Origin: Piscicola geometra
Lineage: Eukaryota > Annelida > Clitellata > Hirudinida > Piscicolidae
Direction of reading: 5' to 3'
Length of the DNA: 64,000 nt
Assembly: GCA_943735955.1 (NCBI GenBank)
Contig: OX030964.1
Coordinates: 4,627,099 to 4,691,098, forward strand
Below the pieces are notes generated by a model. It searched no databases and had not been told where the DNA came from. It saw only the letters and a list, made by a program, of their open reading frames with translations. A program made the translations under genes and the position numbers. The stretch's first letter is position 1, and each line of letters opens with the position of its first letter. This document shows, piece after piece, positions 26,572 to 64,000 of the stretch.

Positions 26572-29433
26572 TCATGCGTTCATGAAGGGTTCTTGTTTGG
26601 CGACCTCATCCCTGTCGAGCACTTGGTATCTGTCTTCATCGCATGCCGAATAATCCATTCTGCCTGCATGCACTTGCTCTGCTTGCTGCAAGGGCAACAT
26701 GGCGAGGTGTTGCTGGTGCTGGTAAAGAGGCATGTTGTTGTTGCAGTTGATGATGTTGCTCTTCATCTCTTTCTTGCTGAAACTTCAATGTAAAAAATTT
26801 GAATATTGAGCGAATTTAAAGAAGTTAAATTGACAAATACCTTTTGAGACAAACGGCTCCCAAACACAAGATCAGCATGCAGACAACAACTCCAAAGCCA
26901 CCAATGCAGACGATTATCGTGGCTGAAAGTTTAAAAAAAGAATTTAGTTTTAGAAAAGGTAATATTCATAGTTTAAACAAACTTTGGTATTTCTTGGTCA
27001 AACTTTCTTCCTTATCAAAAGGATTATTTTCTTCAAACGAATTTTCTTCTGGAATGAACTCTGGGGAAAAAAGAGCAAATTATACAACTCAGTAAGTATA
27101 ATGACCACCTAATGGAGTCAACCTGCTTTTCCTTTAGAATGGTTGGAACAGCTTCCAATAACTCCACTCCACTTGCGGCTTTCGCATCTCAGATACCACT
27201 TTTCCTTGGTCGAGTAACAGCCGATCACTAAGTCGTCGTTGTTTCGCTTCATCCACATGTCTTCGTGAGGAATTATGTCCGAGCATCCGTCAGCTGAAAT
27301 ATTTTAGAGTTTTAATCAACCTTAAATGTTAATAAAGATATTAAATATTCGCTTTATTAATTAAAAAATAGATATTTGCATTAAAAAGGGATATTACCTT
27401 CTACTCCGATGAGGATGCCTTGAGAACCTTGTCCTTGGGAGAAGTAAAGATTCAGACGATTCTCATTGGTCTCGAAGACTGCACTCATGGAGACGAGGTT
27501 CCTGCCATCGCTCCAGCTCTGCACCTTGAAGGCTCTGCTGCAGACAGTGGCGTTCGAAAAGGAGTCATGCCCTCCAAATGCGTAGCCCAGTTCGTCTGAG
27601 CAGGCTGCCTTCAAGGGAGCATCTTTGTCGCCTTCGGGATGATCGAGTCTCTTCATACTCAACCTTATCTTCTGTCCCTTCAGCGTTTCGATCAACAATG
27701 GCCTGTTTTTGGTGAAGCATTCTCTCTTGGGAAACGATTCTGACTTCCCTTCGTTAGTGGAACCAGGATTCAAATACACCGCCTTGTCGTTTGCCACTAG
27801 CCTGCAGCTTCCGTCATCCTTGAACACTTTTACAAATCAAAGTTTTATTTTTTCAATTTCAAATATAGTTGTTTTCTATTTCATTAATTTGCTCTTCTAT
27901 ATGGAAAATACTTAACTCCGAATCAATAATCAGTTAAGTACATATTGGTAGTTCACTTACTTTTGATGCAAGAATAATCAACTTCAAGATGTTTGTTCAT
28001 TCCTAGTTTACAAAACTTTTCTTTCTTGTTTTCCAAGTCTACGACTTTCATTTCGCATTGAGGCTTGAGCTTGCATTTTTCATTAACTGTCCCAAAAACG
28101 TCTTTAAAGCAGCCCAAATACTTTAAATCATTTTTCTGAAAAGCTGATTCTTCGATTTCATCTTCAGAAATACATCTTTAAAATTAACGAACTCGATGAA
28201 AGTACTAGTAAAGGTAATTTGTTTATAAATAATTTTAATTTATATTTATTTACAAAAAATATTCAAGTTCAATCAAATTTTATGAAACTCATAATAATTG
28301 ACATTTTAATTTTTTTTTGTTTAAGTGGTCTTCAGCTAGAAACAACGATAGATGCCAAATCAAAATCGTGGTACCAGTTAACAATTCCCGAAGAGAATCA
28401 ATAATGAGAATTTTAGGTTAAATACTTGTCAAAAATTAATAAGTTCGGTAAAACCAAAACTCATTAAAAAATAGTTTTAACAAAATATTATAAGAAATCA
28501 AAGTAAAAATACTGACTTTCCCACTCTCATCCTCCCGTATTTGGCCACATTCACCACAACCACTTCGTTGTTCGAACAACTAGCCTTAAAAGTCTCAGAA
28601 TTACAAAACTCTTCGATTCGATCTAACAAAGACAATTTATCGATTTTCATCAAATCTTTCAATTAATCTTTTGAATTAAAAATGAATGCGGAGATTTTTC
28701 AATCAAATAACTACCTACCACTCTTTCCGAGATGTATCAAACTGATACACAAACCACAAAACAAACAAAATTCTATTTTTGATAACATTTGACAAACGTG
28801 AATTATCACAATAAGTTTATTAGGAAAATTAATACAACCTGATTTTATATTTCTTGTATATATACAAGTCATACACAAGGGGTCGTTTCAAAATTGAGAA
28901 CTATGAGAAAAACTCGTTAAATTTTGTTTAAAATTTTTGAGTAGAAGATTGTGATCAAAAATTCATTTTTATTAATTTGAAACGTGAATTTAATTTATTC
29001 ATTTATTATAGGTTTAATTTTGCTGATGATTTAAATTGTTCCTTTGACGCATTTGGAGAAGATTTTGTACAAAATAGATTTTAAGTTTTTTTTTTCCATT
29101 TTGAAAAAAATATCAATTAAATGTTAACACATAATATCTTACAACCACTCACTTTCCCACTCTCATCCTCCCATACTTGGCTGCACTCACCACAACCACT
29201 TCGTTGTTCGAGCAACCAGCCTTGAAAGTCTCAGAGATACAAAATTCTTCTGTTCGATTTACAGGAACAGTTTATAGTTTTCAATGTATTATTTATTTTA
29301 AAGAATTTTTTTTATTTATTTGAAACGATTTCATGAGTACTTTACAACCAAAAAACGACTAACCACTTTTTCCATGTTGTATAAAAATAAAAAACAAACC
29401 ACAAAAAACATTTATTTCAAATATAAAATACAT
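26572..29433 (-). CDS. Array unit 1: SUEL lectin-CUB-sushi-like membrane receptor
   Basis: Common exons: E3 28175-27961 (lectin C-half), E4 27826-27398 (CUB-like), E5 27293-27123 (sushi-like), E6 27060-26983 (stalk), E7 26922-26841 (transmembrane), E8 26776-26572 (tail and stop). Alternative starts: A1 28788-28719 with A2 28622-28517, or B1 29433-29364 with B2 ending at 29153. Product 451 residues, a predicted type I surface protein. Lectin halves give EEFC, YGRMRVGK, LGCFKDV and YSC, which contain the eight cysteines of a SUEL/rhamnose-binding domain. The usual DPC motif is replaced by a KFCKLG-type sequence. TM core: TIIVCIGGFGVVVC. Odd: the B2 acceptor, TTAG in most units, reads GTAA here; the next AG lies 9 nt inside the exon (B2 then 29249-29153) and keeps frame. 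The A cassette is intact. The unit is nearest the 3' end of the array. Ligand and function unknown. Confidence 0.85.
28855..28890 (-). promoter_or_regulatory. Inner (type A) promoter of unit 1, model for all A promoters
   Basis: Minus-strand element TGAAACGACCCCTTGTGT (28890-28873) followed by a palindromic TATA box (TTGTATATATACAA), about 70 bp before the A1 start codon. The same pair occurs upstream of A1 in units 2 (32101-32114), 3 (35344-35357), 4 (38768-38781), 6 (44071-44084), 8 (49113-49126), 9 (52412-52424), 10 (55843-55856) and 11 (60869-60881). Coordinates are those of the GGGGTCG element. Confidence 0.7.
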
Positions 29434-29500
29434 TTGACTAGATTTAAAACATTAAACAATTCTTTTCTGAAAATTAATATCTTCACTTATTCATCTTCGT

Positions 29501-61714: not shown

Positions 61715-62067
61715 TGAGTTCATTTGCATTATGGATACGTTAAAAGAAAATTTCAAATAACATTATTGAATTTTAAGTAAGTTTTAAATTGTGGCATTCT
61801 ATGACTATGATACCATAAAATTAAATTTTAATTAAAACAATATGTAAAAATCATCCGATAAAGACGATAAGGTTAAGAAACATGTTTAAACATTGTCATA
61901 GTTTGAACACATAAAGAATTTAATTTATGAAGATTTAATAATTATACATTCCTTAAATACTGACAGCGCCTTATACATGGTGATTCACCGTATCTGAAAA
62001 ACAACATCAATAGGGTACTAAAGCAGAGGCATTTGTATTTTAGTCAACTTCAACTTCAATGCATCCT

Positions 62068-64000
62068 TCACGCATTCATGAAGGGTTCTTGTTTGGCGAC
62101 CTCATCCCTGTCGAGCACTTGGTATCTGTCTTCATCGCATGCCGAATAATCCATTCTGCCTGCATGCACTTGCTCTGCTTGCTGCAAGGGCAACATGGCG
62201 AGTTGTTGCTGGTGCTGGTAAAGAGGCATGTTGTTGTTGCAGTTGATGATGTTGCTCTTCATCTCTTTCTTGCTGAAACTTCAATGTAAAAAATTTGAAT
62301 ATTGAGCGAATTTAAAGAAGTTAAATTGACAAATACCTTTTGAGACAAATGGCTCCCAAACACAAGATCAACAAGCAGACAACAACTCCAAAGCCACCAA
62401 TGCAGACGATTATCGTGGCTGAAAGTTTAAAAAAAAGAATGTACTTTAAGAAAAGGTAATATGCATAGTTTAAACAAACTTTGATATTTCTTTGTCAAAC
62501 TTTCTTCCTTATCAAAAGGATTATTTTCTCCAGACGAGTTTTCTTCTGGAATGAACTCTGGGAAAAAATGACCAAATTATACAATTCAGTAAGTATAATG
62601 ACCACCTAAAGGATCCAACCTGCTTTTTCTTTAGAATGGTTGGAACAGCTTCCAATAACTCCACTCCACTTGCGACTTTCGCATCTCAGATACCACTTTT
62701 CCTTGGTCGAGTAACAGCCGATCACTAAGTCGTCGTTGTTTCGCTTCATCCACATGTCTTCGTGAGGAATTATGTCCGAGCATCCGTCAGCTGGAATGTT
62801 TTAGAGTTTTGGTCAACTAAAAGACTAAAAGTTTATCATTTTATTAAATAAATTATAATCATTTGTCTCAAAAAGTCCTATTACCTTCCACTCCGATGAG
62901 GATGCCTTGAGGACCTCGTCCTTGGGAGAAGTAAAGATTCAGACGATTCTCATTGGTCTCGAAGACTGCACTCATGGAGACGAGGTTCCTGCCATCGCTC
63001 CAGCTCTGCACCTTGAAGGCTCTGCTGCAGACAGTAGCGTTCAAGAAGGAGTCATGCCCTCCAAATGCGTAGCCCAGTTCGTCTGAGCAGGCTGCCTTCA
63101 AGGGAGCATCTTTGTCGCCTTCGGGATGATCGAGTCTCTTCATACTCAACCTTATCTTCTGTCCCTTCAGCGTTTCGATCAACAATGGCCTGTTTTTGGT
63201 GAAGCATTCTCTCTTGGGAAACGATTCTGACTTCCCTTCGTTAGTGGAACCAGGATTCAAATAAACCGTCTTGTCGTTTGCCACTAGCCTGCAGCTTCCG
63301 TCATCCTTGAACACTTTTTGAGACCAAATTTAAATTTTGGTAATTCAAAGTTTGTTTTTTTAGATTTAATAATTTTTAGGTATTATGTTAAATACTTCAC
63401 TCTGAATCAAAAATCAGTTAAATAAAGTTAGGTTTTTTACTTACTTTTGATGCAAGAGTAATCAACTTCAAGATGTTTGTTCAGTCCTAGTTTACAGAAA
63501 TTCTCTTGTTTGTTTTCTAAATCTGTTACTTTCATTTCGCATTGAGGCTTGAGTTTGCATTTTTCGTTCACTTTTCCAAAAACGTCTTTAAAGCAGCCCA
63601 AATATTTCACATCGTTTTTCAGAAATGCTAATTCTTCGATTTCAGCTTCAGAAATACATCTTTAAATATAATAATAATAATAATAATAATAATAATAATA
63701 ATAATAATAATAATAATAATAATAATAATAATAATAATAATAATAATAATAATAATAATAATAATAATAATAATAATAATAATAATAATAATAATAATAA
63801 TAATAATAATAATAATAATAATAATAATAATAATAATAATAATAATAATAATAATAATAATAATAATAATAATAATAATAATAATAATAATAATAACAAT
63901 AATAATAAAAAAATTTATTTAAATTGTAGTTAAAATTTTTACAATTTATATTAATATATATTAATTTTATTTTATTCATTTGTTATTAATAATATTTAAT
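62068..64000 (-). CDS. Array unit 12: receptor, 5' part beyond the window
   Basis: Visible exons: E3 63659-63445, E4 63313-62885, E5 62790-62620, E6 62557-62480, E7 62418-62337, E8 62272-62068, all open with canonical phases. The A and B start cassettes lie beyond 64000, so completeness cannot be judged. E4 has Leu in place of Ser in DSFLNATVC. E3 carries the GKVNEKCK variant shared with unit 11. A (TAA)n tract at 63666-63907 adjoins the E3 acceptor, and the following 90 bp match the left flank of the hAT element in unit 11. Confidence 0.82.
63666..63907. repeat. (TAA)n microsatellite beside the E3 acceptor of unit 12
   Basis: About 240 bp of nearly uninterrupted TAA, at the same position as in unit 11 but longer. 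Confidence 0.97.

Follow-up and report, generated by a model that had tools for sequence, protein, structure and literature searches.

We conclude, at a rough probability of 0.78, that a 64-kb window of the Piscicola geometra genome (the whole stretch of DNA that was analysed) lies in a superlocus of single-pass membrane lectin receptors with a variable-first-exon and constant-body plan, in which the cassette is chosen by alternative promoters. A typical cassette would act as a complete transcription start. It carries a 17-base box specific to the family, commonly has a TATA-like element as well, and encodes from its ATG a signal peptide and a lectin part, namely the N-terminal half of a SUEL domain in the window array or the whole domain in the sister loci. 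A transcript would begin at one cassette and lose the remaining cassettes by splicing, with the lectin head of that cassette joined to a common ectodomain, transmembrane (TM) helix and tail.

Results

Exon mapping on the minus strand of the window confirmed the original prediction of a twelve-unit array with nine full units (1-4, 6 and 8-11), each with an outer (B) and an inner (A) cassette upstream of one common body, a cassette consisting of a promoter, a signal-peptide exon (SP; signal peptides were assigned by eye) and a half-lectin exon (L1). SP exons measure 70 nt (64 nt for SPB of unit 2), L1 106 nt and E3 215 nt (193 nt in unit 2), followed in the body by E4 (429 nt), E5 (171 nt), E6 (78 nt), E7 (82 nt) and E8 (205 nt). 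In unit 4 (36459..39581), our reference model, the cassette exons are SPB 39581-39512, L1B 39403-39298, SPA 38679-38610 and L1A 38513-38408, the body consists of E3 38108-37894, E4 37702-37274, E5 37178-37008, E6 36945-36868, E7 36809-36728 and E8 36663-36459, and either cassette yields a product of 451 residues. As had been predicted, L1 is entered in phase 1 and left in phase 2 in A and B cassettes alike, so that either L1 fits E3 and a B-L1 to A-L1 splice is out of frame; a splice from SPB to A-L1 that skips B-L1, which the prediction did not contain, is likewise in frame.

The further claim that both cassettes of every full unit are complete held for their presence (nine of nine) and failed for four units (1, 2, 3 and 11), in which a splice site or frame is broken. 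Both cassettes are open, with canonical splice sites, in units 4, 6 (41801..44636), 8 (46843..49678, with the same translation as unit 6), 9 (50106..53099) and 10 (53530..56659). Unit 1 (26572..29433; SPB 29433-29364, SPA 28788-28719, L1A 28622-28517, E3 28175-27961, E4 27826-27398, E5 27293-27123, E6 27060-26983, E7, the TM exon, 26922-26841, E8 26776-26572) has lost the acceptor of L1B (29258-29153), which reads AA instead of AG. Unit 2 (29876..32649), with AT instead of AG at the L1B acceptor and a 22-nt deletion that frameshifts the common E3 (31446-31254), and unit 3 (33089..35903), with one stop in SPB and another in the common E3, retain both cassettes and are broken genes. Unit 11 (57099..61425) has an open B cassette and a stop inside the A signal peptide; its L1A-E3 intron, of about 1.8 kb, contains a repeat-rich insertion. 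Units 5 (40022..41359) and 7 (45064..46401, a copy of unit 5) are partial, consisting of a B cassette and E5-E8, without an A cassette, E3, E4 or a usable E5 acceptor. The body of unit 12 (E3-E8) occupies 62068..63659, and its A and B cassettes, both open, lie outside the window at C10:4692647-4693558.

An exact 5236-bp repeat (40020-45255 and 45062-50297, offset 5042) implies that units 5-6 and 7-8 arose either through a single recent duplication or as an artefact of assembly, and the window holds ten distinct units at most. Together with the partial and broken units, this exact duplication bears out the fast turnover that had been proposed. That the array as a whole might be an assembly artefact or a set of collapsed haplotypes, as the repeat could suggest, is extremely improbable given that introns and spacers average 66-96% identity among the seven units compared (1, 4, 8, 9, 10, 12 and 13) and that outlying relatives occur elsewhere on the chromosome.

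The window covers a portion of a larger system: the array continues past the window edge to 14 units (units 12-14 end at C10:4,700,812); unit 14 has three cassettes, all cassettes of units 12 and 14 are intact, and the B cassette of unit 13 is broken. Beyond it, at 70-380 kb, lie six related loci in which 5-17 first exons, each encoding a whole lectin, precede one body, and a search of the genome with the type-II E4 exon gave six strong matches (all with E of 1.9e-77 or lower), with a single first-exon series 5' of each. In the five sister loci fetched, 53 of the 55 Pfam-matched first exons are open, 51 can be extended upstream in their open frame to an ATG 24-48 codons away, and 54 have a GT donor at an identical phase-1 position, the remaining donor being GC. 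Many of these donors are weak (GTTATT, GTTTTT), which counts against our reading. In ENA assemblies, such first exons form nine clusters at 90% identity, on contig(s) of 324,152 bases. The window architecture is the smaller form of a more extensive variable-first-exon system, and single-cassette copies at C10:7.11 and 7.14 Mb suggest that the ancestral form had a single cassette.

The first exons of the sister loci could instead be joined in tandem into long multi-lectin proteins, rather than being used singly. Their donors are all in phase 1, and the Helobdella gene models P0001 and P0002, unlike the window model, have two successive SUEL domains, which leaves room for the joining of some exons in place of a choice among them and counts against our reading. 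As a general account we nevertheless consider tandem joining very unlikely: the in-frame ATG of those 51 first exons comes with a hydrophobic leader that would be buried in any concatemer, nearly every first exon has its own box, and in the window the B-L1 to A-L1 junction is out of frame.

Support for promoter choice comes from the 17-nt box, which lies 99-106 nt before the ATG of all 20 cassettes in the window (minus strand, 28877..61530; starts at 28877, 29522, 32101, 32738, 35344, 35992, 38768, 39670, 41448, 44071, 44725, 46490, 49113, 49767, 52412, 53188, 55844, 56748, 60869 and 61514). All 27 array cassettes carry it (19.7-28.3 bits). The exact consensus has 24 matches in the 171-Mb genome, every one in the block and on the cassette strand, against one for a reversed control; a looser form has 94 (73 in the block, three at outlying relatives and 18 elsewhere) against four, and the box is almost restricted to this block. 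Within 304 kb we counted 82 strong sites, 80 of them before a cassette and two before decayed cassettes. A site of at least 19 bits lies within 500 nt of 80 of the 90 cassettes; the ten that have none, and the training of the position weight matrix on the very cassettes that it then scored, count against our reading. TATA-like matches occur 30-160 nt from the ATG in 56 of 78 upstream regions (20 base shuffles gave 26.6 on average); that only this share has one also counts against it. Each cassette would probably be used as a promoter, to the exclusion of the others.

The original prediction that the A and B lectin halves are nearly identical in protein proved correct: three residue differences are nearly fixed between them. 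The dN/dS values (0.20 within A, 0.13 within B and 0.16 between A and B) indicate purifying selection on both cassettes. E4-E6 of the array, with dN/dS of 0.38-0.55, are under weaker constraint than the lectin exons, an observation that we list against our reading, as we do the broken cassette or body in four of the nine full window units. The proposal that the duplication contributes more to the number of promoters than to the range of binding fits the A/B pair, with its three differences and low dN/dS, and does not extend to the family at large, in which protein identity among the first exons of a single locus is only 39-90%. Diversifying selection was not found in the array exons or among 195 close pairs of sister first exons, since the pooled dN/dS of the latter is 0.32 and dN exceeds dS in a single pair; this, too, we list against our reading.

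These data also bear on a rival account, which we regard as unlikely, in which the second cassette is a by-product of tandem duplication, one cassette being used and the other decaying with no regulatory meaning. The near-likeness of the A and B proteins and the broken splice sites or frames in the cassettes or bodies of units 1, 2, 3 and 11 and in the B cassette of unit 13 would fit it. However, all cassettes are intact in five of the nine full window units and in units 12 and 14, dN/dS is low in both A and B, no array cassette lacks the box, conservation over the 130 nt preceding the ATG (79% for A and 83% for B) exceeds that at 200-400 nt before A (66%), and the sister loci retain up to 17 cassettes, nearly all of them open.

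The predicted lectin was recovered by the Pfam check: residues 38-128 of the window model match SUEL_Lectin (PF02140; E 9.8e-7, 29.5 bits, slightly below the cut-off of 31.4), its sole convincing Pfam match, and one sister-locus first exon that was scanned reaches 37.1 bits, above the cut-off. In a genome search, run exon by exon and hence missing the split lectin of the window array, 70 of 75 block matches exceeded the cut-off. YGR and DPC-type motifs are sugar-binding motifs in SUEL lectins; YGR is present in all array L1 exons listed, and the DPC triplet is absent from its expected place in the rows shown. Glycan binding would be a plausible property of such heads. The CUB-like and sushi-like domains of the original prediction found no profile support, which counts against our reading: CUB (PF00431) remained unmatched even at E 10, the 75 CUB matches in the genome all fell outside the block, and sushi/CCP profiles matched neither E5 nor the locus II body. 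Two AlphaFold models built on shallow alignments (mean pLDDT 43.4 and 34.9) were too poor to serve as evidence for either fold, and a PDB sequence search with the locus II ectodomain returned a single weak, irrelevant match (E 0.38).

In the window units, the sister loci and two proteins of the leech Helobdella robusta, the tail ends with a conserved YxxL after acidic residues: DEDRYQVL, DNAHYFEL (one acidic residue only), DDNKYFVL or DDNKYFDL, DEGRYQVL and DENKYFIL. Once phosphorylated, such a tail could transmit a signal; alternatively, it could direct endocytosis. YxxPhi is a sorting signal, and YQVL, YFEL, YFVL, YFIL and YFDL match it as well as they match YxxL, so that endocytic or scavenger lectins, rather than signalling receptors, are a serious possibility that we place somewhat below even odds. 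On the side of signalling, each of the five tail types has Asp at Tyr -4 and four also have another acidic residue, akin to a hemITAM, and the genome encodes SH2 proteins (47 matches), though a Syk gene cannot be named from these matches alone.

The two Helobdella proteins (HELRODRAFT_189098 and 189100) are the nearest named homologues. They align with 93% of the query at 32-34% identity and match the window model in the arrangement of their parts and in the tail motif; the Helobdella homologues score 58 and 51.7 bits for SUEL, above the cut-off. A four-member profile search again returned only these two as full-length relatives, as had the single-sequence search, both searches being limited to proteins that have short exact words in common with it.

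Discussion

The organisation described here, with several variable first exons before one constant body and a conserved promoter element, shares these two features with the protocadherin type. Akin to the leech loci, the clustered protocadherins of vertebrates (Pcdh alpha and gamma) have a tandem series of variable first exons, every one of them supplied with a promoter and a signal peptide of its own, followed by one constant set. However, the Pcdh variable exon encodes a whole ectodomain of cadherin repeats and the TM, whereas here it encodes a signal peptide and a half or whole lectin only, and the 17-nt box is unlike the CGCT-type element of Pcdh. Membership in that family was rejected, SUEL being the sole convincing Pfam match and cadherin repeats not being found. 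Pcdh choice is stochastic; the likeness drawn here is one of organisation only.

In the mammalian UGT1A locus, too, common exons follow variable first exons that have individual promoters; the locus encodes enzymes of an unrelated protein family. Rhamnose-binding (SUEL) lectins and latrophilin share the SUEL domain, as does EVA-1, and latrophilin 1 was the best PDB match (E 0.06); these proteins have other ectodomain partners and other tails, and we know of no variable-first-exon layout among them. The hemITAM has the acidic form DEDGYxxL, and by sequence the leech tails carry its single YxxL after acidic residues. The hemITAM lectins Dectin-1 and CLEC-2 likewise have a lectin head, one TM and a single tail YxxL (PMC9287148, PMC4161388), although their head is of the C-type lectin fold and that of the leech receptors is SUEL. 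Insect gustatory receptor loci (Drosophila Gr39a and Gr28b, Tribolium Gr214) have several long alternative 5' exons and common 3' exons; unlike the leech genes they encode seven-TM chemoreceptors, with no lectin and no common 17-nt box seen in the portion of the source consulted (PMC6307266).

Among the open-licence PubMed Central papers listed by our searches (subscription journals lying outside), no title or opening of an abstract described a leech or other annelid in which SUEL receptors have alternative first exons. The Hirudo genome paper, in the portion consulted, names lectin types other than rhamnose-binding and does not contain the word 'rhamnose' (PMC7191736), and a paper on Olavius reports seven SUEL lectin transcripts, the gene layout not being given in the portion consulted (PMC5117596). 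As far as these sources extend, the variable-first-exon layout is known from nerve-cell identity genes and not from lectin receptors.

A recognition role, for example immune or self/non-self, would suit such receptors. More speculatively, and in our view rather doubtfully, leeches may have independently evolved a lectin-based, protocadherin-like identity system, in which the box would allow a given coelomocyte or neuron to activate a small selection of its own from about 100 lectin first exons on one chromosome, giving individual sugar-reading surfaces with a YxxL signalling tail, new heads arising by segmental exchange between cassettes.

One body with many alternative recognition heads is known from few, famous cases (protocadherins, Dscam, UGT1A). 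A lectin version in an annelid, with a near-restricted box, would add a tractable example of promoter-choice diversity and would give leeches, which are classic models of neurobiology, a candidate recognition system. The box offers a direct test of the key question, whether one, few or all starts are used per cell.

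Architecture of the array

Twelve units, all on the minus strand, occupy 26.6-63.7 kb of the window, which spans C10:4,627,099-4,691,098. From 5' to 3', a full unit consists of the signal-peptide exon and half-lectin exon of the outer cassette B (SPB, 70 nt; L1B, 106 nt), those of the inner cassette A (SPA and L1A), and a shared body of exons E3 (215 nt), E4 (429 nt), E5 (171 nt), E6 (78 nt), E7 (82 nt, transmembrane) and E8 (205 nt), the transmembrane (TM) helix and signal peptides having been assigned by eye. Exon end phases are constant across units (signal peptide, 1; L1, 2; E3-E6, 1; E7, 2), with exceptions in unit 2, where SPB is shorter and E3 carries a 22-nt deletion, and intact units encode a 451-residue product from either cassette A or cassette B. 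As originally predicted, these phases put a splice from L1B to L1A out of frame; joining SPB to L1A keeps the frame, so that a hybrid is possible in principle. Two complete cassettes, predicted for every full unit, were found in five of the nine (units 4, 6, 8, 9 and 10, all open and with canonical splice sites) and not in the other four: the AG acceptor is gone from cassette B of units 1 and 2, stop codons lie in SPB and E3 of unit 3, and a stop interrupts the cassette A signal peptide of unit 11. Units 5 and 7 are remnants.

A tandem stretch of 5236 bp is identical between window positions 40020-45255 and 45062-50297 (offset 5042), and the other units of the array differ; because of this exact identity, units 5-6 and 7-8 either were duplicated very recently or reflect a fault in the assembly. 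Unit 11, in its long intron, and the DNA preceding the unit 12 body share an insertion with repeated CGGCCGAAACCGAAATT-like stretches (window 59000-60500 and positions 1-1540 of the fetched stretch L009); it has related copies near 5.056-5.057 Mb, and is probably a repeat element copied together with a unit. The right flank completes the array with the cassettes of unit 12 (A and B both intact), unit 13 (acceptor of B lost) and unit 14 (three cassettes, all open), ending at C10:4,700,812. Adjoining the array, Cyclin_N exons were noted on the minus strand at window 14189-19617 (E 7e-15 and, below the cut-off, 0.004), in a gene that by eye looks like cyclin D. At window 1802-2347 the plus strand carries an exon with a UBX domain (E 4e-7).

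Sister loci with many first exons per body

A genome-wide search returned 109 SUEL profile matches, 75 of which lie on the same chromosome as the window, at 4.77-5.08 Mb. Four further SUEL matches, spread over 72 kb of another chromosome or contig (C2:2044847-2117003), may mark a second lectin cluster. We read 240 kb of sequence on the right side of the window in two blocks (4.691-4.791 and 4.991-5.131 Mb, the latter including 5,000 N). Six sister loci at C10:4770362-5082425 (stretches L016-L018 and L019-L028) belong to the receptor family of the window units and follow a format of their own, in which 5-17 first exons, each containing ATG, leader and entire SUEL domain in one piece, precede a single body. 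Locus II (minus strand, body 4770362-4771676) has two first exons recognized from reading frames in addition to 10 matched by Pfam and, spliced in full, shows exon phases matching those of the window units. Locus III (plus strand, body 4893868-4895933), described from match positions only, has 12 Pfam matches and then the body. Locus IVa (minus) has six first exons and IVb (plus) five, with a stop in E4; VIa (plus) and VIb (minus) point towards each other, and in each of them Pfam matches 17 first exons. Across the five fetched loci, 53 of 55 first exons are open, an ATG lies in frame 24-48 codons upstream of 51 (leaders by eye) and 54 carry GT at the identical phase-1 donor position. The sister-type E4 gave six strong matches genome-wide, one 3' of each first-exon series. 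Protein identity among first exons of one locus ranges from 39 to 90%. Type-V units, with eight Pfam matches, have one cassette each.

A putative promoter element confined largely to the cassettes

Alignment of the upstream regions of the 78 cassettes whose ATG could be identified revealed a 17-nt box (consensus TTTTGAMANGAYCCCTT), which precedes the ATG by 54-142 nt (99-108 nt in the 27 array cassettes). A TATA-like match lies 30-160 nt from the ATG in 56 of the 78 (20 base shuffles gave 26.6 on average), and 66-78 nt before it in 23 of the 27 array cassettes. The exact consensus occurs 24 times in the 171-Mb genome (66 contigs), every time within the block formed by the array and sister loci and on the cassette strand (reversed-pattern control, one match). 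A looser version gave 94 matches (reversed control, four): 73 in the block, 18 elsewhere and three at outlying relatives on the same chromosome (7.109, 7.140 and 0.633 Mb). On both strands of 304 kb there were 82 sites of at least 19 bits, 80 before a cassette and two before decayed cassettes; 10 of 90 cassettes had no such site within 500 nt. As weight matrix and consensus were derived from the cassettes, cassette scores are partly circular, but the rarity of the box elsewhere is not. A decayed-looking fragment of a B-type cassette carrying the box lies at C10:633269-633706, 4 Mb from the array.

History and selection

Querying with unit 1 DNA recovered two single copies, 74-79% identical, at C10:7.1088-7.1107 Mb (plus) and 7.1377-7.1395 Mb (minus). 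These form an inverted pair of single-cassette relatives with the box (7108792-7110665 and 7137702-7139601), in which only ~106 bp separate a B-type cassette from E3, too little for a second cassette. The cassette numbers seen thus make up a series: one (single copies, type V), two (full units 1-13), three (unit 14) and 5-17 (loci II-VI). We infer that the single cassette is ancestral, although loss of A would look the same. In a tree of lectin exons, one clade (support 0.966) unites the body-proximal cassettes of II, IVa, IVb, VIa and VIb with some others, and loci II and IVa have outermost cassettes that pair with each other (0.998), a grouping which suggests duplication of whole loci.

Nei-Gojobori dN/dS, computed without error bars over ten units (1, 3, 4 and 8-14, two of them frame-broken; nine for SPB) and without the frameshifted unit 2, the incomplete units 5 and 7, and unit 6, a copy of unit 8, was 0.20 for L1A, 0.13 for L1B and 0.16 for A versus B. 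Body values were 0.23 (E3), 0.42 (E4), 0.55 (E5), 0.38 (E6), 0.17 (E7) and 0.20 (E8), and those of the signal peptides 0.96 and 1.22. On these values both cassettes look to be kept by selection, with lectin halves conserved rather than diversifying. The units are homogenized at their 3' end (E8 dS 0.024; identity 92% in the intron that follows E6 and 96% in that following E7) and not in their 5' half. In the sister loci the pooled ratio was 0.32 over 195 close pairs, peaking at 0.53 in one loop.

Protein domains and relatives

The predicted layout of lectin, CUB-like and sushi-like domains was recovered in its lectin part: SUEL_Lectin was the single convincing Pfam domain of the 451-residue window model (residues 38-128; E 9.8e-7, 29.5 bits, cut-off 31.4), with latrophilin lectin domains as closest PDB sequence neighbours (E 0.06). 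CUB and sushi profiles found no match in the model, in a sister-locus body or in the Helobdella proteins, and none of 75 genome-wide CUB matches fell inside the block. By eye, the cysteine/tryptophan spacing of E5 looks sushi-like and E4 loosely CUB-like. Elsewhere, 26 CUB matches cluster within 18 kb, all on the minus strand (C3:7617230-7635147), as another locus of tandem or multi-CUB type. The receptor tail closes with a YxxL motif preceded by acidic residues (DEDRYQVLD in window units; DNAHYFELD in loci II, IV and VI; DDNKYFVLE or DDNKYFDLE in type-V units; DEGRYQVLD and DENKYFILE in Helobdella).

Among 5.77 billion proteins, a word-based search returned two full-length homologues, both from Helobdella robusta (HELRODRAFT_189098 and 189100; 32-34% identity over 93%), and a profile search found no full-length homologue beyond these. 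The two are identical across the CUB-like and sushi-like stretch but have different lectin, TM and tail parts, a pattern that conversion or sharing of the middle would give. With a locus VI first exon as query, 15 proteins (50-73% identical) were found in ENA assemblies; the longest contig listed has 324,152 bases for nine, 286,826 for five and 625,267 for one, equal figures presumably denoting the same contig. In 14 of them (the short P0017 excluded), front parts are near-identical and last parts fall into few discrete types: 28 of 91 pairs combine at least 90% identity in the front part of the lectin with at most 60% in the last, a mosaic that points to segmental exchange. In the leech's own genome, a like pattern (front at least 85%) occurs in 20 of 1378 pairs and the opposite pattern in three.

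A model for cassette choice

We propose, as the probable mechanism, that every cassette serves as its own transcription start: the polymerase would begin at one box, the chosen head would be spliced to the body, and the remaining cassettes would leave as intron, in the window because joining them breaks the frame and in the sister loci because the first exons have their own ATG and leader. Clustered protocadherins, which have a promoter for each variable exon and a conserved element at most of them (PMC7811963; PMC8787164), share the plan proposed here, as do some insect gustatory receptor loci (PMC6307266); the lectin receptor system belongs to neither family. In the window the choice would alter the promoter far more than the protein, and in the sister loci it would alter the lectin of a receptor that may bind glycans outside the cell and signal, or be taken up, via its YxxL tail.
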